64,000 nucleotides of DNA from Verrucomicrobiia bacterium (GTDB taxonomy: Bacteria; Verrucomicrobiota; Verrucomicrobiia; Opitutales; Cerasicoccaceae). Positions 5,575 to 63,256 of this stretch are shown in pieces. The DNA is taken from contig JAUIHT010000004.1 in NCBI GenBank assembly GCA_030432235.1, forward strand, positions 124,001 to 188,000. The letters are read 5' to 3'. Position 1 is the stretch's first letter, and each line of letters opens with the position of its first letter. The translations under genes and the position numbers were made by a program. The notes under the pieces were generated by a model. It had not been told where the DNA came from. It saw nothing but the letters and a program-made list of their open reading frames with translations, and made no database searches.

Positions 5575-5605
5575 AAGCCAATGATCTTGACTGAGCATCC
5601 TCCTC

Positions 5606-5666
5606 TTGTCAATTTTATACAATTAATAGATTAAATTTTTATTTCTATACCATTTTGGAACATTAA
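5606..5666. promoter_or_regulatory. Duplicated AT-rich promoter/operator module, copy 2 (divergent)
   Basis: Plus-strand core TATACCATTTTGGAAC begins at 5646, and TTGTCAATTTTATACAA lies at 5606-5622, giving the same architecture as copy 1 at 3931-3992 (40 against 41 bases between the two elements). It sits between the divergent sulfatase (minus) and the GH-A-like glycosidase starting at 5708 (plus), so one site could control both directions. The TTGT...ACAA ends also form an imperfect inverted repeat of a kind seen with GntR-family regulators. No regulator gene of that family is in the window. Confidence 0.5.
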
Positions 5667-18210: not shown

Positions 18211-18234
18211 GGTCACACAGGCTGAGGATATGAA

Positions 18235-22298: not shown

Positions 22299-23006
22299 CT
22301 AGTCCTTCTTATCCGCCTCGCTCACTATCCAAGTGTCTTTCTTATTCCATTCATACTTCTCGTCATTGTCACGAGACTCCACATGCCCGTCGAAGAAAAG
22401 GATGTTGGCGTGTCCATTGTGGCGAAAATCAATATCACTCTTACCTCCCCATACCGGATACAAAGCCAGAGCCCAGTCTTCATTACCCACAACCGAATCT
22501 GCTGCTAAAACTTTTTTAGACGGTTCCAGAAGCTCAGAGATACTGATTCCTCCAGCCCACCAATTCATCGCATAGCTGCGCTTATTATCCACCGTGGGGC
22601 AGACGAATAAATCGGACTTCCACCACCAATTTTCGTGTCCTCCTGAAAACTCAGGCATCAGGCGTGCCAGGTAACGCGGCCAGGGGTTGAAGTCCTTGTT
22701 GGGGCCATCACCATCCCTGTCCCACATACAGGGAGGCAACTTCCCATCGTACTCGGTCGTATAGAGGCCAAAATAGACCCCAATCTGGCGCAGGTTACTG
22801 GCACATTGAGAAGCATGGGCGGATTCCCGGGTGCTCCGAATAACCGGAATCAGAATCGCTGCCAGTACGGCCACTATGGCTATTGATACCAGCAGTTCGG
22901 TCAGGGAAAACCCACGAGAAACCGCCCTTTTCAAGTACGCCCCGCCCCTAAACCGACGCTCAAACCCGAAGGCGTCGGAATCGGCTTTATTAGAGAGGTA
23001 GTTCAT
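22299..23006 (-). CDS. Prepilin-type N-terminal domain protein (DUF1559-like pseudopilin)
   Basis: A 235-residue protein with a type IV prepilin leader: RGFSLTELL, with cleavage expected after Gly32 and the conserved Glu at position 5 of the mature protein. A hydrophobic helix follows, then SNLRQIGVYFGLY. The C-terminal block DFRHNGHANILFFDGHVES is typical of the H-x-G DUF1559-type pseudopilins abundant in Verrucomicrobiota and Planctomycetota. These are processed by PilD and sit in type II secretion-like pseudopili. It lies between the GH2 gene and a PEP-CTERM gene, suggesting a role in surface handling or secretion of the polysaccharide machinery. A second such protein is at 63257. Confidence 0.88.
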   Translation of the reverse strand: MNYLSNKADSDAFGFERRFRGGAYLKRAVSRGFSLTELLVSIAIVAVLAAILIPVIRSTRESAHASQCASNLRQIGVYFGLYTTEYDGKLPPCMWDRDGDGPNKDFNPWPRYLARLMPEFSGGHENWWWKSDLFVCPTVDNKRSYAMNWWAGGISISELLEPSKKVLAADSVVGNEDWALALYPVWGGKSDIDFRHNGHANILFFDGHVESRDNDEKYEWNKKDTWIVSEADKKD

Positions 23007-23088: not shown

Positions 23089-23865
23089 TTATTTCCGGCG
23101 CAAACGCTTAACGAAAATGCCTAGAAACAATAGCAACGCGCCGCCGGCATAGCCGATGGTGGCGGGCTCAGGGATGGCCGTCAGCGGCGCGGAGGTATCC
23201 GTGACGCCGGTGTATATACGCAACCAACTGAGCTCCAAGGTGGACTGGGCACCGCCGGAGCCCGAGGTAAAGACCAGAATCTCACCGGCACTGGCAGCAC
23301 CACCAATGGATGAAGTCGTGCTATCTGTACTAAGGCCCAGAAGCGCAGCGTTCGTCGGGCTGCCGCTGTTGACCGCTGTTCCCGTCATACGCAACACCGT
23401 CTGTGTATCCTGAGGGAAGGCCAGGCTACTGGAGGCATTGTCCTTGCCGTACAGTTCATCGGTAGGATTGTGCCATGCGATATAGTTGTAGGTTGCTCCG
23501 GGATTAGAACCGACAAGAAATTGCAGCGAAAATTCGCTCCCCGTATTCGGAGTCGACCAGCCATTGATACCTACATCGATGACGTAGCTTTGGGTATTGA
23601 TGTCGAGTATACTGGTCAAATCCAGCGTTGTATTGGTCGGTGCATCCAACTGAAAGCTGATGTATTCACTCTGGGTGGAAAGCAGCTGGTCAACATCCAG
23701 GCTACCACTTCCGTCGCGACCGGATCCGTTACCGTAAAATTCTTCGAAGACCAAAGTGCCGCTCGCAGGCGCATTGTATTCGGTGTCCGGTGGCACCTGC
23801 GCATGAAGCGAGGAAATGAAGAGCAACGAGGAGAAGAGTAAGGAGGATGTGGGTATGGTTTTCAT
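23089..23865 (-). CDS. PEP-CTERM sorting domain protein under LacI-type operator
   Basis: A 258-residue exported protein. The signal peptide spans residues 1-22 (ending SLHAQ), a beta-rich Ser/Thr/Gly body follows, and the end carries IPEPAT, a hydrophobic stretch and a KRLRRK tail, an exosortase-type sorting signal. The body (INGWSTPNTGSEFSLQF, ELSWLRIY) looks like a concanavalin/laminin-G-type beta sandwich, as in glycan-binding surface proteins, but this is inference. A perfect 16-bp LacI-type palindrome lies 26 bases upstream of the ATG, matching those in front of the GH2 and GH110-like genes, so it is probably co-induced with degradation. Confidence 0.86.
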   Translation of the reverse strand: MKTIPTSSLLFSSLLFISSLHAQVPPDTEYNAPASGTLVFEEFYGNGSGRDGSGSLDVDQLLSTQSEYISFQLDAPTNTTLDLTSILDINTQSYVIDVGINGWSTPNTGSEFSLQFLVGSNPGATYNYIAWHNPTDELYGKDNASSSLAFPQDTQTVLRMTGTAVNSGSPTNAALLGLSTDSTTSSIGGAASAGEILVFTSGSGGAQSTLELSWLRIYTGVTDTSAPLTAIPEPATIGYAGGALLLFLGIFVKRLRRK

Positions 23866-23890: not shown

Positions 23891-23906
23891 TGGAAAACGT
23901 TTTCCA
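23891..23906. promoter_or_regulatory. LacI-family operator TGGAAAACGTTTTCCA
   Basis: A perfect 16-bp palindrome with the central CG typical of LacI-family sites. The same 16 bases occur at 38270-38285, and a 13-base core match occurs at 38319-38334. It lies 26 bases upstream of the PEP-CTERM start (minus strand), where a bound repressor would block the promoter. The likely ligand protein is the LacI homologue at 40150-41184. Confidence 0.75.
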
Positions 23907-23959
23907 GTTTAGCTGGTGACTATGGGATTACAAGAAAATTCTTTGTCTCCTTCGGACGA

Positions 23960-26194
23960 TTATTTGGGGACCTCAAACGGCTTGGTGCGTATCTCAAAAA
24001 TGCGTGCCTGAGGCAGCCCCCATGTATTGGTGACTTCCACACGCAGAGCCGTAATCGGCTTCCCCGAGAGCTCATGAACACGCCGACGCTGCCGGTTATC
24101 CGCCACATCCATGCGCTCAACCTCGTCGCTGCCTCTCAAGCACAGTACGGTATAATCGCGCACGAGACAAGGCGGCTGCCCTTGTTGACACCACTTGGCG
24201 ATGGTGCGGTCGAGTCCGTTGTCAAAAGTCAATTGCACGGCGCTCAACTCGACCGGCTCAACCCAGGACAGCTCGATCCACTGAGGCAAGCCCTCGCCGC
24301 TAATCCATTCATTCGCGGCCACTTCCGGTCGCGTAATGCCCGACACGATCTGCCCCACCCCATAACAATGGCTGGCAGGCCTCAAGGTAAAGCCGAGTGT
24401 GCCGCGCTCGCGGTGCATCAGGCACTCCGTTCCCGGTTCTGTGAAATACTGGTCCTTGCGCGCGGCTGCCTGGGTAGCCGGTTCTTCTTTTTTAGAAGCC
24501 CCCCATGCCAGATTTTTCGTGGCGGACAAGAGCACCCAGTAAGGACGGTTTCCCTCAGGCAGTTCACAATCAAAGACGAAGTTTACTTCATGTCGGCCCG
24601 GCTCAACCTGAGCTACGGCCACGGCCAGATCCTCTTCGGACGAGAAATCGTCGAGCCGTTTACCCGCACGCAAGACGGCGCGTACTTCGCATTGCTTGTC
24701 ACCGGTGTTTTCGAGTGGCAAGGTGACACTCTCCAAGTGTTTCTCCGACAAGACAAACATCTGTGCGCGATCAACCGTCAGCGGCAAGTAGTCTTCCACC
24801 GGTGGCGCGGATAATATACGTTCCGAGGAAGCGCGAATGGACGCCTGCGGCGCTAGGTCCGCTTCGCATTTCCCGGCCACACCCGGCAGGAAGCAATCCT
24901 GCTCAAGCAGGCGTTGCTGCAACTCACGAATATGCTGGGCCCCGACCTCGCGTGGCGAGCAATTCTGCTCCAGGCAAAGCGTGGCGGCGTTGCCCACGGC
25001 CTGCCCCATCACCGCACAAGTCAGCATGACACGCGCACTGGCAAAGGCCACATGCGTGGCGCTGATGTTACGTCCGGCAAAGAGCAGATTGTCGATGTTG
25101 CGCGAGTAGAGGGCGCGGTACGGGATGGTATAGATGCCATTGAGGAGGCGACCCTTCCAGTAAATCTTGCCGGCCATGCCATCCGGCTGGTGTACATCAA
25201 TGTGCCAACCTCCGTAAGCCACCGCATCCTCAAAAATACGCCCGCCTTCGACATCGTGCTGGGTCATGACGTAATCCCCATAAAAGCGACGCGAGTCGCG
25301 CTTGCCCGGCAAGGCCACGATCGACTCCAGAACGTAGTTTTCCGCACCGTGCTCGCCACGGTTCTTAAGGTGATCCCACACCCCGATAGCGTAGCGAAAA
25401 AGCTCATCGCGGATGGTCTCGGCGTCAGCGATGGTATCGAGCCGCCCGCCGGTTTCGATCCACCACCAGCCACCGCGCGGCTTCGTCAGCGCTTCAACCG
25501 GATGCGGACAACTACGCCCCCCTTGCGGCAGACTGTCATCGCCAGGGATAACGTGTACCCAGTCCGGAGTCTCGAAAGGCACGGGTTGCTCCACCTTTTT
25601 CGCGCGCATGTAAACGCTGTTGCCCATGCGATACTCATCGGCCTTTTCCTGGGCCATAGGCTCCCCGTAGGCATCCTTGCCCTCTCGGCCCGTCATAAAG
25701 TCTGCCCCCGCCCGGTAACCCAGCACACCGTCTCCGGAGCAATCAATGAAAACCTGGCCGGTAAAGCGAAAGCGCTTTTCCGTGGTCTGCTGCTCGGCCA
25801 TGACGGATACAATGCGCGTGCCGTCCATCTCGACCTCAGCCGCGTGGGCATTCAAATGCACGGTGAGATTCTCCTGCTCGCGGCAGAAGGCCCACAGGAC
25901 GAGGCTCCACACCGATGGCGAATCCAAGTGGTTGGGGAAGGCGGCGTTGGCGGCTGCTATTTCATCGATGATACCGGTTTCGCGAACATGGCGATAGGAG
26001 CCGGCCTGGTCGGCTCCGTGTGGCGGCACACCGATTTCCGCGCTGGAGTTGCCACCCAGCACCGGGCGGTTTTGCACTAGCACGGTGGTCTGCCCCTGTC
26101 GGGCCGCAGCCACCGCCGCGCAGATGCCCGCCAAGCCGCCGCCGATGACAACCACGGCATAGTTTTCCTCAATGACTTCAATCTCTCTAAGCAT
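23960..26194 (-). CDS. FAD-dependent oxidoreductase (FAD_oxidored type)
   Basis: A 744-residue flavoprotein. Start ATG 26194 is chosen because it sits 8 bases after the stop of the upstream sulfatase, whereas the frame further upstream overlaps that gene's end. Near the N-terminus AVVVIGGGLAGICAAVAAAR binds the FAD ADP moiety; GQVFIDCSGDG and LLFAGRNISATHVA are later family motifs. The C-terminal ~250 residues form a beta-rich extra region (REVLVLR-like and VELSAVQLTFDNGLD stretches) that looks like a galactose-binding-type sandwich. No signal peptide. It is paralogous to the truncated gene at 1-1571. A role in oxidising a sugar intermediate is inferred from location only. Confidence 0.9.
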   Translation of the reverse strand: MLREIEVIEENYAVVVIGGGLAGICAAVAAARQGQTTVLVQNRPVLGGNSSAEIGVPPHGADQAGSYRHVRETGIIDEIAAANAAFPNHLDSPSVWSLVLWAFCREQENLTVHLNAHAAEVEMDGTRIVSVMAEQQTTEKRFRFTGQVFIDCSGDGVLGYRAGADFMTGREGKDAYGEPMAQEKADEYRMGNSVYMRAKKVEQPVPFETPDWVHVIPGDDSLPQGGRSCPHPVEALTKPRGGWWWIETGGRLDTIADAETIRDELFRYAIGVWDHLKNRGEHGAENYVLESIVALPGKRDSRRFYGDYVMTQHDVEGGRIFEDAVAYGGWHIDVHQPDGMAGKIYWKGRLLNGIYTIPYRALYSRNIDNLLFAGRNISATHVAFASARVMLTCAVMGQAVGNAATLCLEQNCSPREVGAQHIRELQQRLLEQDCFLPGVAGKCEADLAPQASIRASSERILSAPPVEDYLPLTVDRAQMFVLSEKHLESVTLPLENTGDKQCEVRAVLRAGKRLDDFSSEEDLAVAVAQVEPGRHEVNFVFDCELPEGNRPYWVLLSATKNLAWGASKKEEPATQAAARKDQYFTEPGTECLMHRERGTLGFTLRPASHCYGVGQIVSGITRPEVAANEWISGEGLPQWIELSWVEPVELSAVQLTFDNGLDRTIAKWCQQGQPPCLVRDYTVLCLRGSDEVERMDVADNRQRRRVHELSGKPITALRVEVTNTWGLPQARIFEIRTKPFEVPK

Positions 26195-26201
26195 AATAAT
26201 A

Positions 26202-27692
26202 TTAGTTGGATTTTGCGTTGCCGCGCGCGACCCACCACTGGCAAGGGTCGTTCGACTTAGTGCGTGGCTTGCGGATGTCCTCCTTGGGCCACACGCGCCA
26301 ACGGCGTGGCCCGCTCTCCAGTACCGCATGCTGGCCGGTGGATTCCAAATAATCAAACAGAGCATCCCGCAGACGCTGTAGGTTGCCCTCATGCGCTGGA
26401 TTGGTGGCCAGGTTGAGGTCCTCGCGCGGGTCCTCCTTCAGGTCGAAAAGCTGCTCGGTGCCGTCAGCGGCGCTATGGATGTATTTGAACCGTCCGTCGG
26501 TACTCAGGTAAAGCGCCCGATCGGGGTTGAAAACCTGCGAAAAAACAATGCGCCCATCAAAACGCTCAGGCATCACCGCGACCTCAGCCAGGTTCACACC
26601 GTCGAAGTCTACGGGCGGCTCCAGGCCGGCAGCGCGCAGGATGGTCGGACCGATGTCCACCAGCGTGACCGGAGTATCGACACGCTGCCCGGAATGGCGG
26701 CCATCCCCCCAACGCATCAGCAGTGGCACGCGGGCAGCAGCTTCATACATGTTACCCTTCCCGATAAGACCCAGGTCACCGAGCATCTCGCCGTGGTCCG
26801 AACTGAACAGGATGAGCGTGTTTTCCAACTGTCCGTTCTCTTCCAGCGCAGCGCGGATGCGCCCGACCTGATGATCGACAAAGGACACGCAGGCGTAGTA
26901 GCGCGCCTTGACCATGCGCCAGAGCGTATCGCTGACGGGTGGGTCGAAGTAATACTCGTGCAGCCCCGCGCGAAGGAAGGCCGGCTGGCGCTGGACCAAA
27001 TCCTCTGGCAAATAGGGACCCGGTAAATCATCGGGCCGGTAAAGCATATCCCAGGGGGCCGGCGGTGCGTAGGGCGGATGCGGATGGATGAAACTGCAGA
27101 AAGCGAACCACGGTTTCCCTCCCCCGGCCTGCTCCTGGATAAAGTCGATGCAGCGGTCACCGACCCACTGCGTCGGATGATGAGCCTCGTCCAGCGGCGA
27201 TGTCTGCGGCATGTAGATCATCTCGCGCCAAGTCCCGTGCACATCGCGTACTTCCTTGTAGGGACTGTCTTGCAGGAACTGCAGATAGTCATCGTCCTCA
27301 ATGCGGCGCGGCGATTCCTCCTGAGTCAACCGCCGCTTAAAACCGCGACGGGCCTGGCGATCCGGCACAAAATGACACTTGCCGATACCCATGGTCTCGT
27401 ATCCGCCACGCGAGAGAATATCCACAAAGGAATCGCGGTCATCCGTGGTCGTCGGGTGGATGTTACCCAGGCAACCGGTCTTGCCTGGATACTGCCCGTA
27501 GTGCAGACAGGAGCGGGCCGGCACGCAGACTGGCGACGGCGAATAGGCGCTCGTAAAGGCTGTCCCCTCACTTGCCAGGCGATCCAAGTGCGGTGTACGA
27601 ATATGATCGTTACCGAGAGCGGCAATCGTGTCAGCCCGCTGCTGATCGGTCAGGATCAGCAGGATATTCGGACGGTTGGAGGAATCGGACAT
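26202..27692 (-). CDS. Type I sulfatase, cytoplasmic form
   Basis: A 496-residue sulfatase. RPNILLILTDQQR supplies the N-terminal metal ligands; SPVCVPARS has the formylglycine Cys56; LFSSDHGEMLGDLG is the second metal motif. There is no signal peptide. It starts 7 bases after the Gfo/Idh/MocA gene's stop and ends 8 bases before the FAD oxidoreductase start, so all are probably one transcript. It resembles the sulfatases at 4057 and 30975 in the first 70 residues but diverges in the substrate-binding middle, suggesting a different sulfate position. Confidence 0.93.
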   Translation of the reverse strand: MSDSSNRPNILLILTDQQRADTIAALGNDHIRTPHLDRLASEGTAFTSAYSPSPVCVPARSCLHYGQYPGKTGCLGNIHPTTTDDRDSFVDILSRGGYETMGIGKCHFVPDRQARRGFKRRLTQEESPRRIEDDDYLQFLQDSPYKEVRDVHGTWREMIYMPQTSPLDEAHHPTQWVGDRCIDFIQEQAGGGKPWFAFCSFIHPHPPYAPPAPWDMLYRPDDLPGPYLPEDLVQRQPAFLRAGLHEYYFDPPVSDTLWRMVKARYYACVSFVDHQVGRIRAALEENGQLENTLILFSSDHGEMLGDLGLIGKGNMYEAAARVPLLMRWGDGRHSGQRVDTPVTLVDIGPTILRAAGLEPPVDFDGVNLAEVAVMPERFDGRIVFSQVFNPDRALYLSTDGRFKYIHSAADGTEQLFDLKEDPREDLNLATNPAHEGNLQRLRDALFDYLESTGQHAVLESGPRRWRVWPKEDIRKPRTKSNDPCQWWVARGNAKSN

Positions 27693-27699
27693 GACGGGG

Positions 27700-28728
27700 T
27701 CAAACTTTGCTCAAAGGCAGCGTCTTGCCTTGGTCAGAGGAACGGTACGCGGCTTCCGCGATCTGCATGGCGCGCACACCGTCTTCCACCGAGGCGATGG
27801 AGTCGTCCGGAGCGCCGCCGTTGGTCAGGTAGCGCACGAAGGCCTGGGAACCGCGCGGGATGGGGTCCCAGCCGACCGGCGAGTGGTAGCGGTAAATGCG
27901 CTCGCCGTATTGACGTACCTCGATGAGCTTGTCCCCGGATACGGAAATGACGCAGGTATCGGTGATAATGTCGAAGTGCATGCCCCACTGCCCGCCCGGA
28001 TTGCTGCCGTTGGCCAATACGGTGATGCCGCCGTCGGCATGTTGCAGCGTGGCCACACCGAGGTTTTCCGAATTCGGCGTATCGTTCTTCAAACGCTCGG
28101 CGTAGTGCTTGATGGGCAGTGTTGCGATTGTACCGGTGACGGACTTGACCGGCCCCATCAACTCGCAGATGAGGTCGAAGGCGTGCCCGGCATTTTCGCA
28201 AAGGTGGCCGCCACTGAGTTCCTTTTTCCAGAACCATCCCGGCGGCATGAAGCGCTTGGGGTTGCAGACCAGAAAGTACTTATACCAAATGAACTGGGGC
28301 TTGCCGTATTTCCCGGAAGCCACCAGGGCACGCAGCTTTTTATAGGTCGGCAAATTGCGGGTGCCGAAGTTCACCATCGCGCGCACCTTGTGCTTCTTCG
28401 CCGCGGCAGCCATGTCACGGGCTTCCTGCAGCGAAACCCCGAACGGTTTCTCCGCGAGGATATCCTTGCCGGCCTCCGCCGCGGCCAGGAACATCTCCCG
28501 TCGCATGAAAGGCGGAGTGGCCAGGATGACGGCATCGACATCCGGATCCGCGATAAGGTCGCGCCAATTTTCATAGGCACGTGAGACCTTGCTCTCCCGC
28601 GCCACTTTTTTAAGCAGCTTGGTATCGATATCCGAAACGGCCACGGCATTGGCCATGGGGTTTTTCGCCTGCGTGCGTACGTGGTTGGCCCCGCCATTAC
28701 CGAGACCGATAACTCCTATATTGATCAT
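27700..28728 (-). CDS. Gfo/Idh/MocA family NAD(P)-dependent oxidoreductase
   Basis: Start ATG 28728 (342 residues) puts the Rossmann motif INIGVIGLGNGGANH at the N-terminus; an open extension upstream overlaps the preceding gene and is not used. AEKPFG is the family EKP motif, whose Lys takes part in catalysis, and WFWKKELSGGHLCENAGHAFD contains the family's HxxD-like element. These enzymes oxidise or reduce sugars and cyclitols, and some act as glycosidases through redox steps. It follows the TIM-barrel isomerase with a 5-base gap and precedes a sulfatase, consistent with processing of an unusual sugar released from the glycan. Confidence 0.92.
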   Translation of the reverse strand: MINIGVIGLGNGGANHVRTQAKNPMANAVAVSDIDTKLLKKVARESKVSRAYENWRDLIADPDVDAVILATPPFMRREMFLAAAEAGKDILAEKPFGVSLQEARDMAAAAKKHKVRAMVNFGTRNLPTYKKLRALVASGKYGKPQFIWYKYFLVCNPKRFMPPGWFWKKELSGGHLCENAGHAFDLICELMGPVKSVTGTIATLPIKHYAERLKNDTPNSENLGVATLQHADGGITVLANGSNPGGQWGMHFDIITDTCVISVSGDKLIEVRQYGERIYRYHSPVGWDPIPRGSQAFVRYLTNGGAPDDSIASVEDGVRAMQIAEAAYRSSDQGKTLPLSKV

Positions 28729-28733
28729 AACCG

Positions 28734-29558
28734 TTATGCGATGAGGTTTTTCATGAAGGCCACCGTTTGCGGCAGCACGGTTTCCGAGTCGCCTTTGGCA
28801 AAGCATTCCAGAGACAGATTCCCGCTGTAGCCTACTTCCTTGAGCGCTTTCATAGACGGGCCAAAATCCGTATGCCCCTGTCCCGGCAGGAAGCGGTTCG
28901 AATCCACCATGTGGACGTGTCCGATAAGGTGTCCATACTGCCGGATACTCTCCGCCATATCGGCCTCTTCGAGATTCATGTGGAAAAAGTCTGCCGTGAT
29001 GCGCAGGGCATCCGAACCGACCACCTCGATGTATTCGGCAGCGTCCTGCAGGGTCTTCACCACATGTGTTTCGTAGCGGTTAACCGGCTCGAGGAAAAGT
29101 TTTACCCCAAGTGATTCGGCGCGCTGTGTGAGCTTGCCCAGCATATCGATGAAGACCTCCTTCTGCACCTCGTAAGGATCCCAGAGCGGGCTAAGGTCCG
29201 GCATCTGCGGACGCTTATCAAAGAGCGGTACGAAGACCATGCCCGTGGTCTCAAGCTTGGCGGCCAGCTCCAGCAGGTCGTGAAAATCCTGAAAGCAGAT
29301 CATGCGTTCTTCGCGATCGCCCGCCAGGAGGTTTCCGCGGAAGCCGGAGCAGATGTTACCGCAGGGCACGCTCTCGGCCTTGAGCGCGGCTTGCACCGAG
29401 TCGAGGTCCTCCTTGAGCCACTTGCCCCAGATTTCGACGGCGTCGAAACCAAAGCGCTTGAGCGAAACCAGACGCTCACGAAAAGTCGCGCCCGGCAGTA
29501 TATCCGGGAAGAAGAAGCCTCCCCGCAATGTGGATACGATGGATAATTTCATTGGCAT
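28734..29558 (-). CDS. Sugar phosphate isomerase/epimerase-like TIM barrel
   Basis: A 274-residue (or 272 from ATG 29552) AP_endonuc_2-type TIM barrel. FLEPVNRYETH, ADFFHMNLEE, GHVHMVDSNR and LSLECF give the Glu, Asp/His, His and Glu ligands of the divalent metal centre found in hydroxypyruvate, tagatose and xylose isomerase-like enzymes. It has no signal peptide. The gene lies directly upstream of the Gfo/Idh/MocA dehydrogenase; this pair is common in carbohydrate clusters, where they act in sequence on an oxidised or ketose sugar. Substrate is unknown. Confidence 0.9.
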   Translation of the reverse strand: MPMKLSIVSTLRGGFFFPDILPGATFRERLVSLKRFGFDAVEIWGKWLKEDLDSVQAALKAESVPCGNICSGFRGNLLAGDREERMICFQDFHDLLELAAKLETTGMVFVPLFDKRPQMPDLSPLWDPYEVQKEVFIDMLGKLTQRAESLGVKLFLEPVNRYETHVVKTLQDAAEYIEVVGSDALRITADFFHMNLEEADMAESIRQYGHLIGHVHMVDSNRFLPGQGHTDFGPSMKALKEVGYSGNLSLECFAKGDSETVLPQTVAFMKNLIA

Positions 29559-29562
29559 AAAT

Positions 29563-30978
29563 CTAGTGGTTGATGGTCGCGCATGTACTTTCAGCGCTGC
29601 ATAGGCCTCGAGGCACGTTCCAGGAACGCCCCGGCAAGGAGTCGCGGAAATTTTTCGGCAAACGGTCCTGCTGGTAGTCCAGCTCCAGCCAGGGATCGCG
29701 TGTACGCAGGCGCCATTCTGTCATGGTGTGGCGGAACTGCTCCACCGTTTCGAATAGTTCCGGCTGCCCAATCAGGTTAACCGTCTCCATGGGGTCGTTT
29801 TCGAGATCGTAAAGCGCTTCCTCCGGCCGAAAAAGCACATCGTGGGTGCAACGCTTCCCCATGTACTCCAGGGCATCCCGGCGAATAACTTGCCAGGTGG
29901 CCGAGTCATAGAGGTCCGTCCCCAGAGGCATCGGCTCACGATGGACCAGGTGCCGCACGTATTTATAGCGCCGATTCAGCACGGCACGGTAGGGATAGTA
30001 GTTGGTGACCTCGTGGAAGCTGTGGGAGAAAAAAGTTTGGTCAAAACCCGGTGCATCTGGGTCTTCCAGCAACGGTAACAGTGAGCGCCCTGTCCACTCG
30101 GCTGGATATGCCTCGGGCGCGACTCCCAGGAAGTCCGCCACCGTCGGGGCCAGGTCGGTCCAGTTGACCAGAGCATCCGTCTCGCCGCAATAATTCGACG
30201 GATGCCGGATAATCAGCGGACAATGATGGCCTGTATTGTATGACGATGCCTTGGCCCCCGGGAACGGCATGCCGTGGTCGGACAGAATCAGGACGAGTGT
30301 ATCCTCGGCACGACCAGCGCGCTCGAGTTCACGCAACATGTCTCCGACAAAACGATCGAAGCGAGTCACGAAGCGGTAGTAGTCCGCCAAATCACGTCGC
30401 ACCCCCGGGCAATCCGGCAGGAAGTCCGGCACGACAATATCCTCTGGTCGATATGACACATCCGGCTCGTGCCCGTCGCCCACGGCGGAATCAAAGTCAC
30501 CGCCCGTACGGTGCGGGTACATGGACGCGACTTGCAGGTAAAAGCTTTGCCTATCGGCGTCTTTAAAGAATCGACGTGCCGAAGCGGCCAAATCATCAGT
30601 CCGCCACGGCAGGGAGCGATCATAATGTTGAAATGGATAAACCGACGGCGGCGCGATATGGTCCTTGCCTATCATACCTGTACGCACACCGGCGTCGTTC
30701 AACAAAGCCGGCAGCGAACGAACGTGCTCATGCGTGGCAAAATGATGCACGCCGTGCGGATGTCCATATTGCCCATGCTGGTGACTGTAGAGGCCAGTAA
30801 GGATATTGGCCCGCGATGCAGCGCAGGATGGCGTGGTGCAATAGGCACGGCGAAAAACCATCCCCTGCCCCGCTACGGCATCGATATGCGGCGTACGCAC
30901 GACGGCATTGCCATAGCAGCGCGCCAGCGGCGACCAGTCGTCGGCGATAAGCAGGAGGACTGACGGTGATGAACTCAT
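29563..30978 (-). CDS. Type I sulfatase with variant C-x-A-x-R signature
   Basis: A 471-residue sulfatase from ATG 30978, which overlaps the stop of the upstream sulfatase by four bases (ATGA). The frame is open further up but inside that gene. SVLLLIADD provides the N-terminal Asp pair. The signature reads SCAASR: Cys52 followed by Ala rather than Pro at the third position, an accepted variant ([CS]-x-[PA]-x-R) known from N-sulfoglucosamine sulfohydrolase-type members. ILSDHGMPFPGAK carries the second metal site. There is no signal peptide. It is the most divergent of the five sulfatases here. Confidence 0.9.
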   Translation of the reverse strand: MSSSPSVLLLIADDWSPLARCYGNAVVRTPHIDAVAGQGMVFRRAYCTTPSCAASRANILTGLYSHQHGQYGHPHGVHHFATHEHVRSLPALLNDAGVRTGMIGKDHIAPPSVYPFQHYDRSLPWRTDDLAASARRFFKDADRQSFYLQVASMYPHRTGGDFDSAVGDGHEPDVSYRPEDIVVPDFLPDCPGVRRDLADYYRFVTRFDRFVGDMLRELERAGRAEDTLVLILSDHGMPFPGAKASSYNTGHHCPLIIRHPSNYCGETDALVNWTDLAPTVADFLGVAPEAYPAEWTGRSLLPLLEDPDAPGFDQTFFSHSFHEVTNYYPYRAVLNRRYKYVRHLVHREPMPLGTDLYDSATWQVIRRDALEYMGKRCTHDVLFRPEEALYDLENDPMETVNLIGQPELFETVEQFRHTMTEWRLRTRDPWLELDYQQDRLPKNFRDSLPGRSWNVPRGLCSAESTCATINH

Positions 30979-32498
30979 GAGGATTGAGCGGTCGTGGGCT
31001 TGCCCATCCACCAAGTGGATGGCAGCGTTTCCGGTGCGTAAGGGCCAAGCTCGGCCAACAGTGTCTCAATGCCTTTGGGGTGCTGGACCAGTACTCCCGC
31101 ATCGGGATGGTCCGGTAAGGCTTGTTTGCCGAAGTGACGCCAGCCGGAGCCATTGAGTGACGAGGTGTAGCCGTCGCGACGATAACGTTCGATGAGCAAA
31201 TCACGCAACCCGACCCGGTCTTCCTCGTAAGCACAATTGCCGGCGAAGTCATACGACTCGTGAGGGTCGGACTCCAGATCGAAGAGCCACTCCCTCTCAT
31301 CGGCGGCGGAGAAAACATATTTGCGGCGCTCAGTAACCGCCATATGCAAACCAACGCCATCGGTTTGGAGCTGGCTGAAAACCGTTCGCGGGCCGATTTT
31401 GCCATCCGCGACTTCGGACAAATCCTTCCCCTCCTCACAGACTGGCTCCCACGTATCACCCGCAGCGGCGAGGAATGTGGGATGCAGATCGAGCAGGCTG
31501 GTCACGCCTTCATGGCGTGTACCCGCTCGCTCGCCACCGGGCCAACGTACGACCAGCGGCACCCGCGCTGAGGCATCGAGCATGGAGCGCTTACCGATAC
31601 AGCCGTAGTCGCCCAGTAGCTCGCCATGGTCGCTGGCAAAGACGACAAAGGTATTTTCGATGTCGTCTCCCAGCGATTCGAGGATACGCCCGATATGATA
31701 ATCGACGAAAGAAATCGAGGCATAGTAAATCGCCTTGATGGTACGCATGAGCCAGACGTCGTAACCTTGATCGCGGTACTTGGCACGCATCTGGCGATGG
31801 TTCCAATACGTCAGCAAATCCTCATAACCCTCGGGACGAAACGGCGGCGGCATTTGCCCAGCCCAATAGATGAGATTCCAGGGCGTGGGCGCATTGAAGG
31901 GCGGATGCGGACTGAAGAAACTCGACCAGAGGAAAAACGGCTGCTCGCGGTCGCGCTCCTCCAGGAAGGCGATGGAACGGTCCGCCACCCAAGCCGTCTC
32001 GTGCAGGTGAGCCGGCATTTGCGAAACCTGCGGAACACAATACATCTCGCGTAACGCACCGTGGACATCCAGCACGTGATCGTAACCGTGCGCGTCGAGA
32101 AACGCACGATAGTCGTCCTGTCCGCGCTCGCTCACCTCACGCGTCTCAAAGCCCCAAAGGCGTTCACGCTGTGGCGTGAAGTGCATCTTGCCAATGCCGT
32201 GGGTACGGTAGCCCAACTCCGTCAGCCGGGCCATGAAACTCGGGACATCCTCCCCGATGTTCGTGCCATTGTCCCAGCAGCCCGTTTGGTGTGGCGGCAG
32301 TCCGCTGCATAATGCCGCCCTCGCCGGCACACAGACCGGCGAAGGCGTATAGCAACGCGAGAACACCGTTCCTTCGGCGCAGAGACGGTCAAGGTTGGGC
32401 GTGCGCAGAATGGGATTACCCGATGCTCCGAGCGCGTCGAAGCGCTGCTGGTCGGTAAAGAGCAGCAGAATATTCGGCTTGGACGCACCCGAGGACAT
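30975..32498 (-). CDS. Type I sulfatase, near-duplicate of the one at 4057
   Basis: A 507-residue sulfatase: KPNILLLFTDQQR at the N-terminus, SPVCVPARA with formylglycine Cys56, and FASDHGELLGDYG. There is no signal peptide. It is very similar to the sulfatase at 4057-5574 along its whole length, including long identical runs such as SSFFSPHPPFNAPTPWN, so the two probably share specificity or arose by recent duplication. Its ATG overlaps the stop of the beta-propeller gene by one base (TGATG), and its own stop overlaps the next sulfatase start, so the three genes are translationally coupled. Confidence 0.93.
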   Translation of the reverse strand: MSSGASKPNILLLFTDQQRFDALGASGNPILRTPNLDRLCAEGTVFSRCYTPSPVCVPARAALCSGLPPHQTGCWDNGTNIGEDVPSFMARLTELGYRTHGIGKMHFTPQRERLWGFETREVSERGQDDYRAFLDAHGYDHVLDVHGALREMYCVPQVSQMPAHLHETAWVADRSIAFLEERDREQPFFLWSSFFSPHPPFNAPTPWNLIYWAGQMPPPFRPEGYEDLLTYWNHRQMRAKYRDQGYDVWLMRTIKAIYYASISFVDYHIGRILESLGDDIENTFVVFASDHGELLGDYGCIGKRSMLDASARVPLVVRWPGGERAGTRHEGVTSLLDLHPTFLAAAGDTWEPVCEEGKDLSEVADGKIGPRTVFSQLQTDGVGLHMAVTERRKYVFSAADEREWLFDLESDPHESYDFAGNCAYEEDRVGLRDLLIERYRRDGYTSSLNGSGWRHFGKQALPDHPDAGVLVQHPKGIETLLAELGPYAPETLPSTWWMGKPTTAQSS

Positions 32499-33502
32499 CA
32501 GCTTACCACTCCTTGGGGATCTACGCCGTTGCGCGGCGCAACGGCCAGGCCGATGCGCTCAATGCCAACTTCCCATCCTTCGCGGGAGTTGTAATAGAGC
32601 CGCCATTCGTCACCATGCGCGGCCAGGCAAAGTTGGTAGACGAGCGAGGACTTCCAACTGTCCGGCTCCGGCGCGATGATGGGGTTGTTGGGCGTGTCAA
32701 ACCAATCGAGGCCGTCCTCGGAGAGGAGCACATGAATGGCGGAGCGGCTGTGCTCAACCTCCTTGTCCCAGTAGACACCGTTGTTGAAGCCGACATACAA
32801 CCCGTAGGCCTCAAGGTAATATACCTTCATCGCGCCCGCACCGATGTTACGGTATGGGTCGTCTTCGTCCGGTGCGATCAACGGCTCGGTATGTTTGACG
32901 TAAGGCCCGTCGATTTTGTCCGCATAGGCCACGCCGATATTAGCCGGCTCCTCGAAGCCCAGGTCCGGAATACGCTTCACGCCACCGCTGTAATAAAGCG
33001 CGAAGCGACCGTCCGGCATGGGCGTAAGGCAGGCGTTGCGGCAAGTAGGGCGGAACTCCATATCCTCCCAAGGCAGGTCGGGCTCCAGCAATGTCTTCGG
33101 CTCAGACCAGTTTTTCAGATCGTCGCTGTGACGCATAACGATCCAGCAACGCTCGGGAAAGTTGTTCATCTGGTAGAACAGGTAGTAGCGCCCATCCATG
33201 GGATAAACGAAGGGCGAGAAGCCATCCCACTCGTGGAATGCATAGCGCTCCCAGGCCAGACCGTCCGGCGAGGTCCACTGCGCCAAGGTACCATAAGTGC
33301 CACAGGTGATAAGGTGCCACTGCCCATCCGGAGAGAGCGACGGTGTGATGACCGTCGGATCGGCGATGACATTCTTGAGGAAGGGTTCGATAACCGGACT
33401 CTGTGGATGGTCGCTCCACTTCGTATCGATCAGGGCCTTCAGGCGCTCGTTCAAGGCCGGGTTATAACGGCCCCAGATGGTTTTCTTTTCGGTGACGTTC
33501 AT
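32498..33502 (-). CDS. Five-bladed beta-propeller glycosidase-like protein
   Basis: A 334-residue protein without signal peptide. Repeated blade-like units (IADPTVITPSLSPDGQWHLI, SPFVYPMDGRYYLFYQ, CLTPMPDGRFALYYSG, YLEAYGLYVGFNNG, YQLCLAAHGDEWRLYYNS) resemble GH43, GH32 and GH117-type glycosidases or phosphorylases of the GH130 fold. Acidic residues placed at blade starts (Asp in IADPTV, Glu in EDMEF) are catalytic candidates. I cannot choose a family. It begins a tightly coupled unit with two sulfatases and lies just downstream of the giant GH2, so it probably trims an oligosaccharide in the cytoplasm. Confidence 0.82.
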   Translation of the reverse strand: MNVTEKKTIWGRYNPALNERLKALIDTKWSDHPQSPVIEPFLKNVIADPTVITPSLSPDGQWHLITCGTYGTLAQWTSPDGLAWERYAFHEWDGFSPFVYPMDGRYYLFYQMNNFPERCWIVMRHSDDLKNWSEPKTLLEPDLPWEDMEFRPTCRNACLTPMPDGRFALYYSGGVKRIPDLGFEEPANIGVAYADKIDGPYVKHTEPLIAPDEDDPYRNIGAGAMKVYYLEAYGLYVGFNNGVYWDKEVEHSRSAIHVLLSEDGLDWFDTPNNPIIAPEPDSWKSSLVYQLCLAAHGDEWRLYYNSREGWEVGIERIGLAVAPRNGVDPQGVVS

Positions 33503-33535
33503 AGGTGATGTGTGTGGATGGTTTAAATAATGGGT

Positions 33536-36500
33536 TTAATCGAAGCCGGACTCGGACTCGGCATAACTGATGGCGAGCACTACCGGCATATGGGCGGACT
33601 GCTCCGAGGCCTCGATTTCGACGGCCTTGATCTTTTCTTCGGGATGCGGATTACGCCAACGCATCAGGTAGTAAGCACTGGTTTCGCCGACATCCTCGCC
33701 GTCCGTCTCCTGCGATTGGAAAGCCAGCTCCGCCATGGGCAGGGGTTGCACGCTGGCCCGAATGGGCCGAACCTGCTGCCCGGAGTAGACCGGGATATCG
33801 ATTTGGCGGCCACTCTCGTAGATGACATGGTAAGTCATCACCAGCGGGCCAGGCTGCGGCGGACGGTAGGGCTCTCCCCACAGTCGCAAATAGCCCTGCA
33901 CGAAGGCCAGCTCATCCGCGTTGACGCGCGGCACAGGAACGGTGACGGTGGATGGCCCACCGGGAAAAGTCTCTACCCAGGTACCGTCAGCATCTTGCCG
34001 CCTCGCGTTGACACGGATAATGGCGGGGGCCGACTCCGTTACTGGATCGGGCATGAGAAACTCGACGCCGTCTAAAGTCTGTCGACCGCGAGGCCAGTCC
34101 CCGCGCAGCAGCTTACCGGCATCGATATTTTTCCCGTCGGGATTGCGCTTGTTGAACTCCGTGGTCAGCGGCGCGTTGTAAACCTTTTCGAGGGAAACGG
34201 GCTTCCAATGCTGCTCCGAACCACCGGTAACCGGCAATGAACCAGCCAGCACGCCCAGGTTTGTCATGAAAACCTTGCCGAACTGCCGTGCCTGCTCGAA
34301 ATCCTTATTTTCAAATTCCCACTGCGTTTGATCAAAGACAATGTCACCTTCACCGTAGCGCGCCGTGCCCCAGAGCATCGGCTCGGTGGCGGGTGTGACC
34401 GCGCCGCTTTCCTCGATGATCGGCACATTGGCCCGCGGCCAGTTGTCCTGACCAAAAGCCACCGAGTAAGGACTCAGCCCTGCGTTCAGCGCATCCGGGA
34501 GCAACGTGATACGCTCCGCGGATTTGCCTGCCTGCAGATCGAAGCCGTAAATTTTTCCAGCTTCCGTAATCTGCCCGGGGCTCAGGTTGTGCAGAATCAA
34601 ACGACCACCACGCCGCACCCATTCCTTCAAAGGTCGGAGAGTGGCGATGTCCACCGTGGAGCCGTCCACCAGGATTTGCTCAACAGCCCCGCGCCCTGCG
34701 GTGTCCGGCAAATCAATCCCCTTCCCCGCCAGCTCGATGCCGGCGGCAGACAGCTCCGCGGCAAAACGACTGCCCGAGCCACAGAGCAGGTAGGTCGCAC
34801 GTTGGGCGGGCACAGTCATCGTGTCGAGATAGACCAGCAACGCATTCAACAGCCGTGCAGCCATCGGATCGACATCCAGCTTCTCCTGCACGAGCACCTG
34901 GCAAAAGAGGTAAACGCCATTGCCGTAGAAAGTTTCAACCATACCGGTAACCGGGAAGTCGACCAGCGGACGACTGCGTGCCGCTCCTGTGGCAACCAGC
35001 GGACGACGCACCACGCGATGATCGTCCTGCCAGTAATGCAGGCCCGCCTCCGGCAGACCGGAGAAAACCTTGTTGCCTGGTGTGCCCGGATAAAGCGTGT
35101 TGCTGGGGTTTTCGGTCAGGCGGATATCGACGGGGAGCCAGCCGTCGGCCCAACCCTCCTGGTCGAGTACCAACACCCGGCCCCCGCGCTGGACAAAACC
35201 GGCCAAAGGCTTTGCCAGATCCTGCTGCGTGGCCGTGTCTATTCCACCAGGCAGAATCAGGATGGTTTGCTCAGCATCAAGCTCAGCCAAGACGGCAACA
35301 TCCGCAACCGGGACAGCATACGGCAAGTGATTCAAAAGCGCGTCCGAGGACTCCTCCTGATCTTCTCCACGCCAGACAAGAACGCGACGCCCTAGGTTCA
35401 GTAACGGGACTTCCCGGTCAAAAATCAGCAAGGGCTGCTCCACGTTCAACGTCGCCTCTTCGTCACCAAGCGTGCCGGATAATCGGGCCTCCCAGCGTGC
35501 TGTTTGCCAGCCCGGTGACGATGGTTTCATCTCGACGCGAGCACTGAGCGGCAGCTTCTCCGTACCGCCCTGCTCAATGGCCAACGGCTGCTCGCCTCGC
35601 GCCAGGACGCTGCCATCCGCTTCAACCAGTTGCCAGCTTAGCGTACCGTTAAAATCTTCCAGATCATCGTTGCTCAACCACAGTTCAGTCTCGATGGGAG
35701 CATCCGACCAGACGTTTTGTGTCCATGGGTAAAACATACCAACTAGAGGAGCATAGGCGAGGCGTGCCATCTCCTTCTTCATCGGATTATCCACATAGCC
35801 ACTACCACCGATGGACTGGCCGACATGGAGAATGTTCAGCATGCGATAAAGGATGAGCGCGCGCGAAAACCAGAAAGGCTTTTGCTCCAGGTCGAGCTCC
35901 TCGCGTTCGTCCGGGGTGAGAGTGAAATAGTCCTGCCCGTAGCCTTCAGCATAATCCAACCGCCAAGGCGGCAACATCTCGCCAATCATGATTGGCTTGT
36001 TCCGGTCTTTATCCGTCAGATAGTTGCCCGTGGTTTCACGCTTCACACAAACCGATGCATCAAGCGGCCAAAAAAGCTCGTTGGGCCAATTGTTGACATA
36101 AGGCCGCATGCGCTCGGGGTAGTGGTAGTTGATGACATCGTCACGGCCATCGGTGGGACCATAGGCACTGTGCGATACCGGACGGGTCGGGTCGGCTTCG
36201 CGCATGGTATCACGCACCAGGGCCAGAAAGCGGCTGGTCACCTCGCTACGCGGCACCTTCCAGTGTTCGAACTCGTTCGACCCCGACCACATCACGACGC
36301 TCGGGTGATTACGGTCTCGCTCGATCAAGCGAACGGCGTGCTCAACGGCCGCCGGGGATATCGGCCGATGGTTGAGTGCGGTCTCCGGAATCAGCAGAAA
36401 GCCCTGGCGGTCCGCCTCGTCCAGAAATACTTCCGGCAGAGGTTGGCAATGCAGACGCACCGTCTCGATACCGGCTTCCTTATGCGCCGTCCACAACTCC

Positions 36501-38212
36501 TCGGGGGCAAGATAGCCTCCCTCATAATGACGGGCCGCATAATACTGCCCGGTATGGCCCCAACGTCCGTACAAATGAATTTTTTTGCCGTTGAGGTAGA
36601 AGCTGTTGCCGTCGATCCAGACTTCTCGAAAACCAAAGGTCGTATCGGTACGGTCCAGTGTCCGACCGTTCTCGTCAAGCAGCTCGACCCTTACTTGATA
36701 CAGCTTAGGATGCTCTGGCCACCACAGTTCAGGATTTTCCCAGGGGATGGTCAGACGAATCGCGGCCTCATCCACCGCAGGGAAATCCGCACTGTCGAGC
36801 ACCTGGCCTTCGTCGAGTATTGACAGGCGAATGCCAGCGACATCTTTCGCTGTGCCGGCCACTTCGACGTCCACCGTGAGTTGCTTTTCCCGCACGGAGG
36901 GTTGAACGAAAACCGAATCGACATAGGCCGTGCCACGAGTCTCCAGGTAAGCGGGCTGCCAAATACCACCGTGCTGGTCGAACATCGCGCCGATGGGCGC
37001 CCCTAGCTCCTGTGCTTTACGATAAGACCCCACACGCAACAGCAGTTCGTTGTCCTGCCCCGGCTTCACCTTATCCGTAATGTCGAACTCGAAGGGCAGG
37101 AATCCGTCAATATTGCGCCCCAGATGCTCCCCATTCAGATAGACGTCACTGACAAAAGCCACGGCGTCGAAGTGCAGGAATAAACGGCGATCCGGTGGTA
37201 AATCTTCGGGGATGGCCAGCTCTTTACGATACCACACCGTGTCGATATCGCGGGCTTTCAGATCGCCGAGTTCTACACCGTAGCGCCACCAGGGCTTCGC
37301 ATAGAGTCGCTCTCCATCCAGATAGATGGGGCTCCAATCCGTGGGTGGATGAACCTCATCGACACCTGGAGGCACAAAGGCAAAGTCCCATCGTCCCAGC
37401 AAAGAAACTTGGGCACGCTCCCCACCATCGAGTCTAGAAAGCTCTCCAAGGCCGGTTGCTTCCAGAGTCGTAATATTATCACCCGCGAACGCGCGCTGGA
37501 TCGTGTTTTCGTCGAGCACTTCGTTGGTGATCAACAAATCGTCGATGAGCCCCGAGAAGCCTTGCTTCGAAGGGGTACGGTCTCCCCCCAGCAGCCAACG
37601 CGAGCGCTGGTAAGCACTGACGCCCTCCAAGTCCGTCCAGGAGCCGAGATTGTTGCCCTCGGTGATTTCCGCTGCCTGTTTTCCGTTCAGGTAAATCACG
37701 GGCTGCTTGCCGTCCTGCACCAGCGCCACCTGAGTCCATTTTCCTACAGGCACACTGCCCGGCAACGTACTCCCCCGCCAATGGTAGGGGAAAGGTTCAC
37801 CTTTCCAGCGATTTTCAACGACTAGGGATTCAGTCGCCGCGTCGTAAGAGACCGACAGATGATTATTGGCGAAATGAATACCTCCCGCTGACAGAGCCAG
37901 CACGTTACCGCTCTGCCCTGTTGGCTTTAGCCACAAAAGCACCGAACCTTGCTCAGAAAAACCGTCCTTCCACGGCACCCCGACTGCCTCATTGTCTCCG
38001 CCAAACCGAAGCGCTCGTCCGTCTTCACGCCCCTGGCCGAATTGCTCTTCCGCAAACTGAATGACTGTTCCATTGACCGACTCCAGAATCACAGAACTCC
38101 CACCTTCCATATCCAGCCACAATACTGGATCGACTGGAGCGCCCGTCGCTGCCAGGCGAAAAGCTAACATAGCGCCGCAGAAAACGGCCATGGCTGCACG
38201 GGAGACAAACAT
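33536..38212 (-). CDS. Exported GH2-family glycosidase with N-terminal laminin-G-like domain
   Basis: About 1558 residues from ATG 38212 (a TTG codon directly before is also in frame). The signal peptide ends near LAATGAPVD. Residues 30-250 form a LamG/concanavalin-type sandwich (VLWLDMEGG, GSVLLWLKPTG, FSGLIDDLLITNEVL), likely glycan-binding. The GH2 core follows: FDAVAFVSDVYLNGEHLG, HGGIWQPAYLET, acid/base Glu647 in VVMWSGSNEF and nucleophile candidate Glu745 in PIMIGEMLPPW. The long C-terminal part matches the paralogue at 18235, including LAGFVQRGGRVLVLDQ and LKEWVRRGGRLILHNL, which look like ThuA/amidotransferase-type domains. A LacI operator lies 58 bases upstream. Confidence 0.9.
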   Translation of the reverse strand: MFVSRAAMAVFCGAMLAFRLAATGAPVDPVLWLDMEGGSSVILESVNGTVIQFAEEQFGQGREDGRALRFGGDNEAVGVPWKDGFSEQGSVLLWLKPTGQSGNVLALSAGGIHFANNHLSVSYDAATESLVVENRWKGEPFPYHWRGSTLPGSVPVGKWTQVALVQDGKQPVIYLNGKQAAEITEGNNLGSWTDLEGVSAYQRSRWLLGGDRTPSKQGFSGLIDDLLITNEVLDENTIQRAFAGDNITTLEATGLGELSRLDGGERAQVSLLGRWDFAFVPPGVDEVHPPTDWSPIYLDGERLYAKPWWRYGVELGDLKARDIDTVWYRKELAIPEDLPPDRRLFLHFDAVAFVSDVYLNGEHLGRNIDGFLPFEFDITDKVKPGQDNELLLRVGSYRKAQELGAPIGAMFDQHGGIWQPAYLETRGTAYVDSVFVQPSVREKQLTVDVEVAGTAKDVAGIRLSILDEGQVLDSADFPAVDEAAIRLTIPWENPELWWPEHPKLYQVRVELLDENGRTLDRTDTTFGFREVWIDGNSFYLNGKKIHLYGRWGHTGQYYAARHYEGGYLAPEELWTAHKEAGIETVRLHCQPLPEVFLDEADRQGFLLIPETALNHRPISPAAVEHAVRLIERDRNHPSVVMWSGSNEFEHWKVPRSEVTSRFLALVRDTMREADPTRPVSHSAYGPTDGRDDVINYHYPERMRPYVNNWPNELFWPLDASVCVKRETTGNYLTDKDRNKPIMIGEMLPPWRLDYAEGYGQDYFTLTPDEREELDLEQKPFWFSRALILYRMLNILHVGQSIGGSGYVDNPMKKEMARLAYAPLVGMFYPWTQNVWSDAPIETELWLSNDDLEDFNGTLSWQLVEADGSVLARGEQPLAIEQGGTEKLPLSARVEMKPSSPGWQTARWEARLSGTLGDEEATLNVEQPLLIFDREVPLLNLGRRVLVWRGEDQEESSDALLNHLPYAVPVADVAVLAELDAEQTILILPGGIDTATQQDLAKPLAGFVQRGGRVLVLDQEGWADGWLPVDIRLTENPSNTLYPGTPGNKVFSGLPEAGLHYWQDDHRVVRRPLVATGAARSRPLVDFPVTGMVETFYGNGVYLFCQVLVQEKLDVDPMAARLLNALLVYLDTMTVPAQRATYLLCGSGSRFAAELSAAGIELAGKGIDLPDTAGRGAVEQILVDGSTVDIATLRPLKEWVRRGGRLILHNLSPGQITEAGKIYGFDLQAGKSAERITLLPDALNAGLSPYSVAFGQDNWPRANVPIIEESGAVTPATEPMLWGTARYGEGDIVFDQTQWEFENKDFEQARQFGKVFMTNLGVLAGSLPVTGGSEQHWKPVSLEKVYNAPLTTEFNKRNPDGKNIDAGKLLRGDWPRGRQTLDGVEFLMPDPVTESAPAIIRVNARRQDADGTWVETFPGGPSTVTVPVPRVNADELAFVQGYLRLWGEPYRPPQPGPLVMTYHVIYESGRQIDIPVYSGQQVRPIRASVQPLPMAELAFQSQETDGEDVGETSAYYLMRWRNPHPEEKIKAVEIEASEQSAHMPVVLAISYAESESGFD

Positions 38213-38269
38213 CAATTATTTACGAATACGGGGTGGATCAAAAGGGGCTGCTTAATCAGCATATCAATA

Positions 38270-38285
38270 TGGAAAACGTTTTCCA
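38270..38285. promoter_or_regulatory. LacI-family operator, copy 2
   Basis: The perfect palindrome TGGAAAACGTTTTCCA, identical to 23891-23906. It lies in the divergent promoter region between the GH2 giant (minus) and the GH110-like gene (plus), 58 bases upstream of the GH2 ATG. Together with the site at 38319 it brackets the -35-like element. Confidence 0.78.
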
Positions 38286-38289
38286 TTTT

Positions 38290-38303
38290 TTGACATATGT
38301 CAA
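38290..38303. promoter_or_regulatory. Palindrome TTGACATATGTCAA, overlapping divergent -35-like elements
   Basis: A perfect 14-bp palindrome that presents TTGACA on both strands. On the plus strand a weak -10 (TTGATT) follows at 38312-38317 and overlaps the edge of the third operator. It could therefore be the -35 pair of the divergent promoters or a binding site of the TTGAC-N4-GTCAA form; the same form occurs at 55040-55053. Confidence 0.5.
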
Positions 38304-38318
38304 CCGGAAATTTGATTT

Positions 38319-38334
38319 CGGAAAACGTTTTCTT
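38319..38334. promoter_or_regulatory. LacI-family operator, copy 3
   Basis: CGGAAAACGTTTTCTT shares a 13-base core (GGAAAACGTTTTC) with the two perfect operators. It lies 35 bases upstream of the chosen start (38369) of the GH110-like gene, just after the predicted -10, a position where binding would block transcription of that gene and of the LacI gene coupled to it. Confidence 0.72.
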
Positions 38335-63121: not shown

Positions 63122-63256
63122 CACTATCCAAGCTCGCCAAAAGCATCAACAAGGTCGACAGAATATTACGTGTAAAAAGGATTGCTATTCGCGGAACAAA
63201 ATCAGGAATCCTATATTAGTTACGTAATGAATCTATTACCGCGGGAGCACAAAACA

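Follow-up and report, generated by a model that had tools for sequence, protein, structure and literature searches.

The genome of the Verrucomicrobiia bacterium studied here encodes 59 LacI-family proteins, and a stretch of 64,000 nucleotides of it (the window) carries one of the corresponding genes within a cluster of carbohydrate enzymes in which three similar palindromes are found. The question raised by this locus is whether these palindromes, here called O1, O2 and O3, are the operators of the adjacent LacI protein or of some other one, and which genes they would place under a common sugar control. Our analysis indicates that they are very probably the operators of the LacI protein encoded at 40150-41184, which would repress three predicted units until a sugar releases it.

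The preliminary description of this DNA had reported two perfect 16-bp palindromes and one 13-base core match, and our scan of the window rendered the same coordinates and sequences. The 14-mer GGAAAACGTTTTCC is found exactly at 23892-23905 and 38271-38284, and with one mismatch (13/14) at O3, whose imperfect sequence, GGAAAACGTTTTCTTGAT, is identical in the genome of another genus of the same family (G004). Flanking T and A make both exact sites 16-bp palindromes, O1 and O2 being the exact copies of the 16-mer TGGAAAACGTTTTCCA in the window, and the O2 copy extends to 18 bp. Three matches with at most two mismatches to the 14-mer were detected in the window versus 0.24 expected, a number that none of 100 shuffles reached. 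In the own genome (5.72 Mb in 42 contigs, 95.9% complete) the exact 14-mer is present only at the two places in the window, and allowing up to two mismatches to the 16-mer adds a single place, C37:256552, which lies within a carbamoyltransferase coding sequence. The many copies in unrelated promoters that, according to the preliminary description, would tell against a regulon were not encountered among exact or two-mismatch copies in this genome-wide search. With three mismatches to the 16-mer there are 46 further places, O3 among them, and the total of 49 places with up to three mismatches is about twice the 24 rendered by a reversed control pattern, which we count against the operator reading. 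Among the first 12 of those 46 places (L006-L017), one is O3 and the remaining 11 are contained in open frames of 100 aa or longer; the criterion is a lax one, and by it O2 and O3 likewise count as lying within open frames. Perfect short palindromes do arise by chance at a low rate, and the sites might be chance or structural repeats without a regulatory role; given the result of the shuffles, the fact that both exact copies in 5.72 Mb sit 14 kb apart in one cluster, and the retention of the three orthologous positions in another genus, this is scarcely conceivable.

The cluster comprises 14 genes in three groups, a leftward group headed by O2, the rightward GH110-lacI pair and a leftward group headed by O1 (Table 1), which, on the basis of gene spacing, are presumably transcription units. 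The preliminary description placed the sites only upstream of three genes; all three do stand before genes, but O2 and O3 share one divergent promoter region and O1 heads a group of four leftward genes, in which the pseudopilin, the second GH2 and the esterase had been missed. The GH110-like assignment was borne out by a full-length match of the putative enzyme to PDB 7jw4 (query 39-581, E 4e-95). The likely GTG start of lacI at 40150 overlaps the GH110 stop codon at 40151-40153 (GTGA). This overlap, together with the conservation of the three positions in another genus, upholds the proposal of a LacI regulon, with putative binding, that contains its cognate repressor gene, and the autoregulation suggested in the preliminary description remains the prediction. 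Two further sulfatases are encoded in the left part of the window, at 4057-5622 and 9434-10963; the first shares 73% identity with the G004 orthologue of the cluster sulfatase at 30975-32498, which therefore has a close paralogue nearby.

Table 1. Predicted operators and genes of the cluster, with window coordinates, strand and basis of each assignment
Feature	Position	Strand	Basis or remark
Operator O1, exact 16-bp palindrome	23891..23906	.	Window and genome scans; kept in G004 at C54:158792-158807
Operator O2, exact palindrome, 18 bp with flanking A/T	38270..38285	.	Scans; kept in G004 at C54:144437-144452
Operator O3, 13/14 match	38320..38333	.	Window scan; imperfect sequence identical in G004
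GH110 (alpha-1,3-galactosidase family), first of rightward pair	38369..40153	+	PF23763/PF23764; ATGCAC start kept in G004
LacI-family repressor gene	40150..41184	+	PF00356 46.7 bits, PF13377 98.9 bits, both over cut-off
Large GH2 with LamG-like domain, first of O2-headed leftward group	33536..38212	-	Start inside ORF 33536-38215
GH43/GH32-like hydrolase	32498..33502	-	94% identical in G004
Sulfatase	30975..32498	-	PF00884
Sulfatase, SGSH/S1_8-like by best solved relatives	29563..31014	-	PF00884; true start probably inside ORF
Xylose-isomerase-like TIM barrel (sugar epimerase/isomerase)	28734..29558	-	PF01261; NF041099 below its cut-off
GFO/IDH/MocA oxidoreductase	27700..28806	-	PF01408
Sulfatase	26202..27692	-	PF00884
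FAD-dependent oxidoreductase, last of O2-headed leftward group	23960..26392	-	PF12831
PEP-CTERM-like protein with IPEP, a predicted C-terminal helix and a basic end; heads the group behind O1	23089..23865	-	Weak PF07589
Pseudopilin-like protein, prepilin N-terminus, DUF1559-like	22299..23006	-	PF07963 28 bits, over cut-off; PF07596 just below cut-off; TIGR02532
Second GH2	18235..22236	-	Domain match
SASA-type carbohydrate esterase, last of O1 group	16633..18216	-	PF03629; 549-bp gap to next leftward ORF

The likely starts of GH2 and GH110 are ca. 57 and ca. 83 bp away from O2, respectively, and O3 precedes the likely ATG of GH110 (38369) by ca. 35 bp. The centres of O2 and O3 are 49 bp apart in the window and 53 bp apart in G004, a change that loses helical phase, so that looping between the two sites was considered but is disfavoured, and independent binding at each would be preferred. 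The 94-bp gap that separates the two leftward groups holds O1, ca. 25 bp ahead of the ATG at 23865. Promoter scans detected no sigma-70-like promoter at either operator region, a result that we count against the operator reading, an overlap of operator and promoter being only hypothetical. One terminator-like site was detected, at 38388-38373 of the minus strand, where it falls within the beginning of GH110. No terminator was found by the terminator scan between the two leftward groups, and O1 could therefore sit inside one 12-gene leftward transcript starting at O2, where the same LacI would act on a secondary promoter or as a road-block, the stop codon of the FAD-oxidoreductase and the next ATG being only those 94 bp apart. 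A perfect palindrome placed just upstream of a start codon and kept there in G004 is, on the other hand, what a promoter-proximal operator would be expected to look like, so that we consider the single long transcript possible but rather unlikely and prefer O1 as the operator of its own four-gene group.

With at most 37 candidates scored per genome, a close orthologue of the LacI protein was found in one of 53 relatives, G004, with 80% identity; the next match has 32%. Exact peptide patterns were also run against genome contigs and rendered five loci, of which one is close (81%); it lies on JAUIAM010000003.1 of a Verrucomicrobiia MAG ('Verrucomicrobiia bacterium isolate 5_bin.45'), the same contig as C54 of G004. 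The exact 16-mer occurs in two of the 372 genomes of the order, a set drawn from a larger group and including the own genome, namely the own one and G004 (one of 371 others). All 14 genes are present in G004 in unchanged order, with identities of 59-94%, although the second GH2 is split there into two overlapping frames, owing to a frameshift or an assembly error, and lacI starts 21 bp behind GH110 with no overlap. The GH43-like hydrolase at 32498-33502 is unusually strongly conserved between the two genera (94% identity, versus 59-86% for the other cluster proteins). When the intergenic regions of both genomes were aligned, O1, O2 and O3 appeared as conserved islands amid diverged flanks, a footprint that rests on two genomes because only one orthologous cluster was found.

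On C54 the 16-mer is exact at 140036, 144437 and 158792, has one mismatch at 167557 and two at 144384, and all G004 sites with up to two mismatches fall within one stretch of 28 kb that holds the orthologous cluster, save the two-mismatch site C24:45803. At three mismatches the G004 total is 22 versus 23 for the reversed control, that is, with no excess. Two of the putative operators in G004 are additional to those of the window, an exact one upstream of an MFS_2 transporter gene and a one-mismatch one where a sulfatase gene begins. This last site and O1 (ca. 25 bp from its ATG) are nearer to the gene starts than most LacI-family sites, and we count this against the operator assignment. The best homologues of the G004 transporter in the own genome are 58-59% identical, with none in the window; the two closest (L153 and L154, at C42:175631 and C37:650424) each have another LacI gene no more than 5 kb away.

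The protein encoded beside the operators has both the HTH and the periplasmic-binding-like sensor domain, and its recognition helix is identical to that of the G004 orthologue (79-80% protein identity). The palindromes could instead belong to a different LacI paralogue encoded elsewhere, with the local protein acting on another target. The number of paralogues, 58, counts against the local protein as the binder, as does its hinge residue, a Met in place of Leu, and the LacI protein at C15:74007 shares the start of the recognition helix, VSVSTVS. Among all 59 LacI-family helices, V-S at the two recognition positions is found in the local LacI and C15:74007 only, and its combination with an ARAM hinge in the local LacI alone. 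Moreover, lacI and operators co-occur, the close LacI copy being present in one of 53 relatives (up to 37 candidates scored in each) and the exact 16-mer, outside the own genome, in that same genome alone of the 372. The LacI genes listed for the contig of the additional place C37:256552 are all over 100 kb away from it, though most LacI regulators autoregulate according to the available text of PMC4052901. Regulation by a paralogue is thus improbable, and the distinctive recognition helix and hinge, taken with the co-occurrence, make the local LacI, and not one of the 58 others, the likely binder as far as the sequences permit us to infer. In many of the LacI paralogues the hinge follows the pattern GYxPDPxLSxL in place of the ARxL form, and these may therefore recognise DNA differently.

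A search for paired, near-identical, CG-centred palindromes near LacI genes was carried out on 53 stretches of 10.9-20 kb, some of them overlapping, of which 52 cover the 59 LacI genes and one extra lies left of the window. It rendered four within-stretch pairs versus 0.6 expected from between-stretch pairs. Besides the pair of the window, C3:265748/266579 and C7:379220/380314 are plausible operator pairs; in the latter (L125), the perfect palindrome CCTACACGTGTAGG flanks the helix region of another LacI gene, a second possible private operator pair. Since few plausible pairs were found, a clean private operator set does not appear to be general for the other LacI genes at this sensitivity.

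These results would be explained if a LacI dimer bound each of the three sites, O1 controlling the group of PEP-CTERM-like protein, pseudopilin, GH2 and esterase, and O2 and O3 the divergent region from which both the GH2-to-FAD-oxidoreductase group and the GH110-lacI pair would be expressed. Bound LacI would block transcription until released by a sugar that derives from the polymer and is probably a mono- or disaccharide of the galactose type, so that the repressor itself would be made along with the hydrolases, the sulfatases and the two proteins that are likely secreted or at the surface. The substrate is probably a sulfated galactose polymer. The most likely reading of the locus is thus a LacI regulon that is local, dedicated and autoregulated and comprises some 14 genes, including GH110, two GH2, the GH43-like hydrolase, three sulfatases, oxidoreductases and the esterase.

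The mechanism is likely the ordinary one for a local LacI repressor, a switch of a well-known kind. The protein resembles E. coli repressors of the MalI, PurR and GalR types in domain order and in the position of the recognition helix, but its matches to the PurR, GalR, CcpA and MalI models are all below the curated cut-offs, and no named LacI-family model was over its cut-off for this protein. The core AAAACGTTTT presumably resembles the site of MalI. Galactan utilization loci typically carry an endo-acting galactanase, and loci with GH110 and S1 sulfatases use carrageenan. Such galactan loci (solved relatives 7jw4, 9beh and 9bb9) and the present one have in common GH110 and S1-type sulfatases in one cluster; here, however, the regulator is of the LacI type, and Pfam recognised no endo-hydrolase among the cluster genes, the neighbouring 41469-42419 and 42429-44417 being without a Pfam match.

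In the available text of PMC4052901, which describes more than 1300 LacI regulators, 1251 of 1303 motifs are even palindromes and 1173 are centred on CG; sites located 140 to 30 bp upstream make up more than 75%, nearly 90% of the regulators are local, and 72% autoregulate. The sites described here are likewise few and local, even, CG-centred palindromes upstream of target operons (O3 off by one base), adjoining the repressor gene at short distances from the gene starts and kept with the repressor in a related genome (one other genome), and they share with the local regulons of PMC4052901, as far as its available text goes, carbohydrate enzymes as targets and predicted autoregulation. What sets the predicted regulon apart from those, within the same text, is the inclusion of sulfatases and of two proteins that are likely secreted or at the surface; the main text of PMC4052901 contains neither the word Verrucomicrobia nor Planctomycet. 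No published description of this regulon was found in the open-access literature among the matches listed (titles and abstract openings).

The preliminary description had also tied a surface-sorting PEP-CTERM protein to polysaccharide induction, and this could be sustained in part. The own genome has an exosortase match, TIGR02602, with 150.4 bits at C42:292890 (the only one of six matches to exceed the cut-off), so that sorting of the PEP-CTERM-like protein by exosortase is possible. The PEP-CTERM assignment of the protein itself is weak: PF07589 scores 13.2 bits on it, with a cut-off of 20.7, no NCBIfam match to it was found, and its G004 orthologue has IPEV where the window has IPEP, that is, it lacks the second proline of PEP. 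Its predicted terminal helix, residues 237-257, comes from an otherwise poor single-sequence model, the mean pLDDT being 38 for this protein and 40 for the pseudopilin. The surface link is nevertheless real in one sense, since at the level of the DNA the conserved O1 stands before the PEP-CTERM-like gene and the pseudopilin, whose products are likely secreted or surface proteins.

A general linkage of PEP-CTERM to LacI genes was rejected: the own genome has 64 other PEP-CTERM matches at E <=0.01, the protein of the window being below that threshold and outside the 64, and 11 of these 64 genes have a LacI gene within 5 kb versus 8.1 expected, a count reached by 358 of 2000 shifts with estimated contig extents and by 412 of 3000 in a repeat with stated extents. 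A pseudopilin gene is located directly downstream on the same strand, as in the window, in 5 of the 64. Prepilin-type genes, on the other hand, are within 2.5 kb of 15 of the 59 LacI genes of the own genome versus 4.1 expected, which none of 3000 circular shifts reached; with the limit set at 1.5, 5 or 10 kb, 6, 20 and 24 LacI genes qualify, numbers reached by 107, 1 and 10 of 3000 shifts, respectively. At the same distance of 2.5 kb the counts are 11 of 54 versus 2.5 expected in G002 (8 of 3000 shifts reaching it) and 5 of 34 versus 1.2 expected in G001 (27 of 3000), and LacI genes near prepilin-type genes were thus above expectation in the three family genomes tested. The lacI gene of the window, 17 kb from its pseudopilin, is outside the 15. 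This is co-location and by itself no sign of regulation; perhaps both kinds of genes simply belong to sugar loci. At the end of the window another pseudopilin-like gene (63182-63982, TIGR02532 match at C3:187281) lies beside a LacI gene just outside it (C3:188197).

Capture of polysaccharides by pilus-type structures is not a new idea, being treated already, in the available parts of these sources, by PMC13174399, which discusses pilin-like glycan attachment for Akkermansiaceae (MUL2) of the Verrucomicrobiota, by PMC5394234, on dextran-binding or polysaccharide-binding fibres in Planctomycetes, and by PMC12078418, which reviews pili as 'fishing rods' for polysaccharides. The present locus shares with MUL2 and with the Planctomycetes fibres, as these appear in the same parts of PMC13174399 and PMC5394234, the link of a pilin-like protein or fibre to glycan use and the superphylum, and differs from them in that its pseudopilin is DUF1559-like and stands behind a LacI-type operator, with a hypothetical role in capture. 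It could be speculated, as a doubtful extension of our data, that many polysaccharide loci in this Verrucomicrobiota family carry their own DUF1559-type pseudopilin under a private LacI, here with a PEP-CTERM-like partner, so that a substrate-specific capture or surface apparatus would be built only when the polymer is present, the O1 group being the clearest case.

The locus provides, among 59 LacI paralogues in one genome, a clearly bounded set of operators, in which conserved DNA sites tie a pseudopilin and a PEP-CTERM-like protein to what would be sugar-controlled galactan use. It thereby gives a direct experimental entry to how these bacteria capture large sulfated polysaccharides, and a private sugar switch on a pilin-like capture gene, if true, would be a useful handle.
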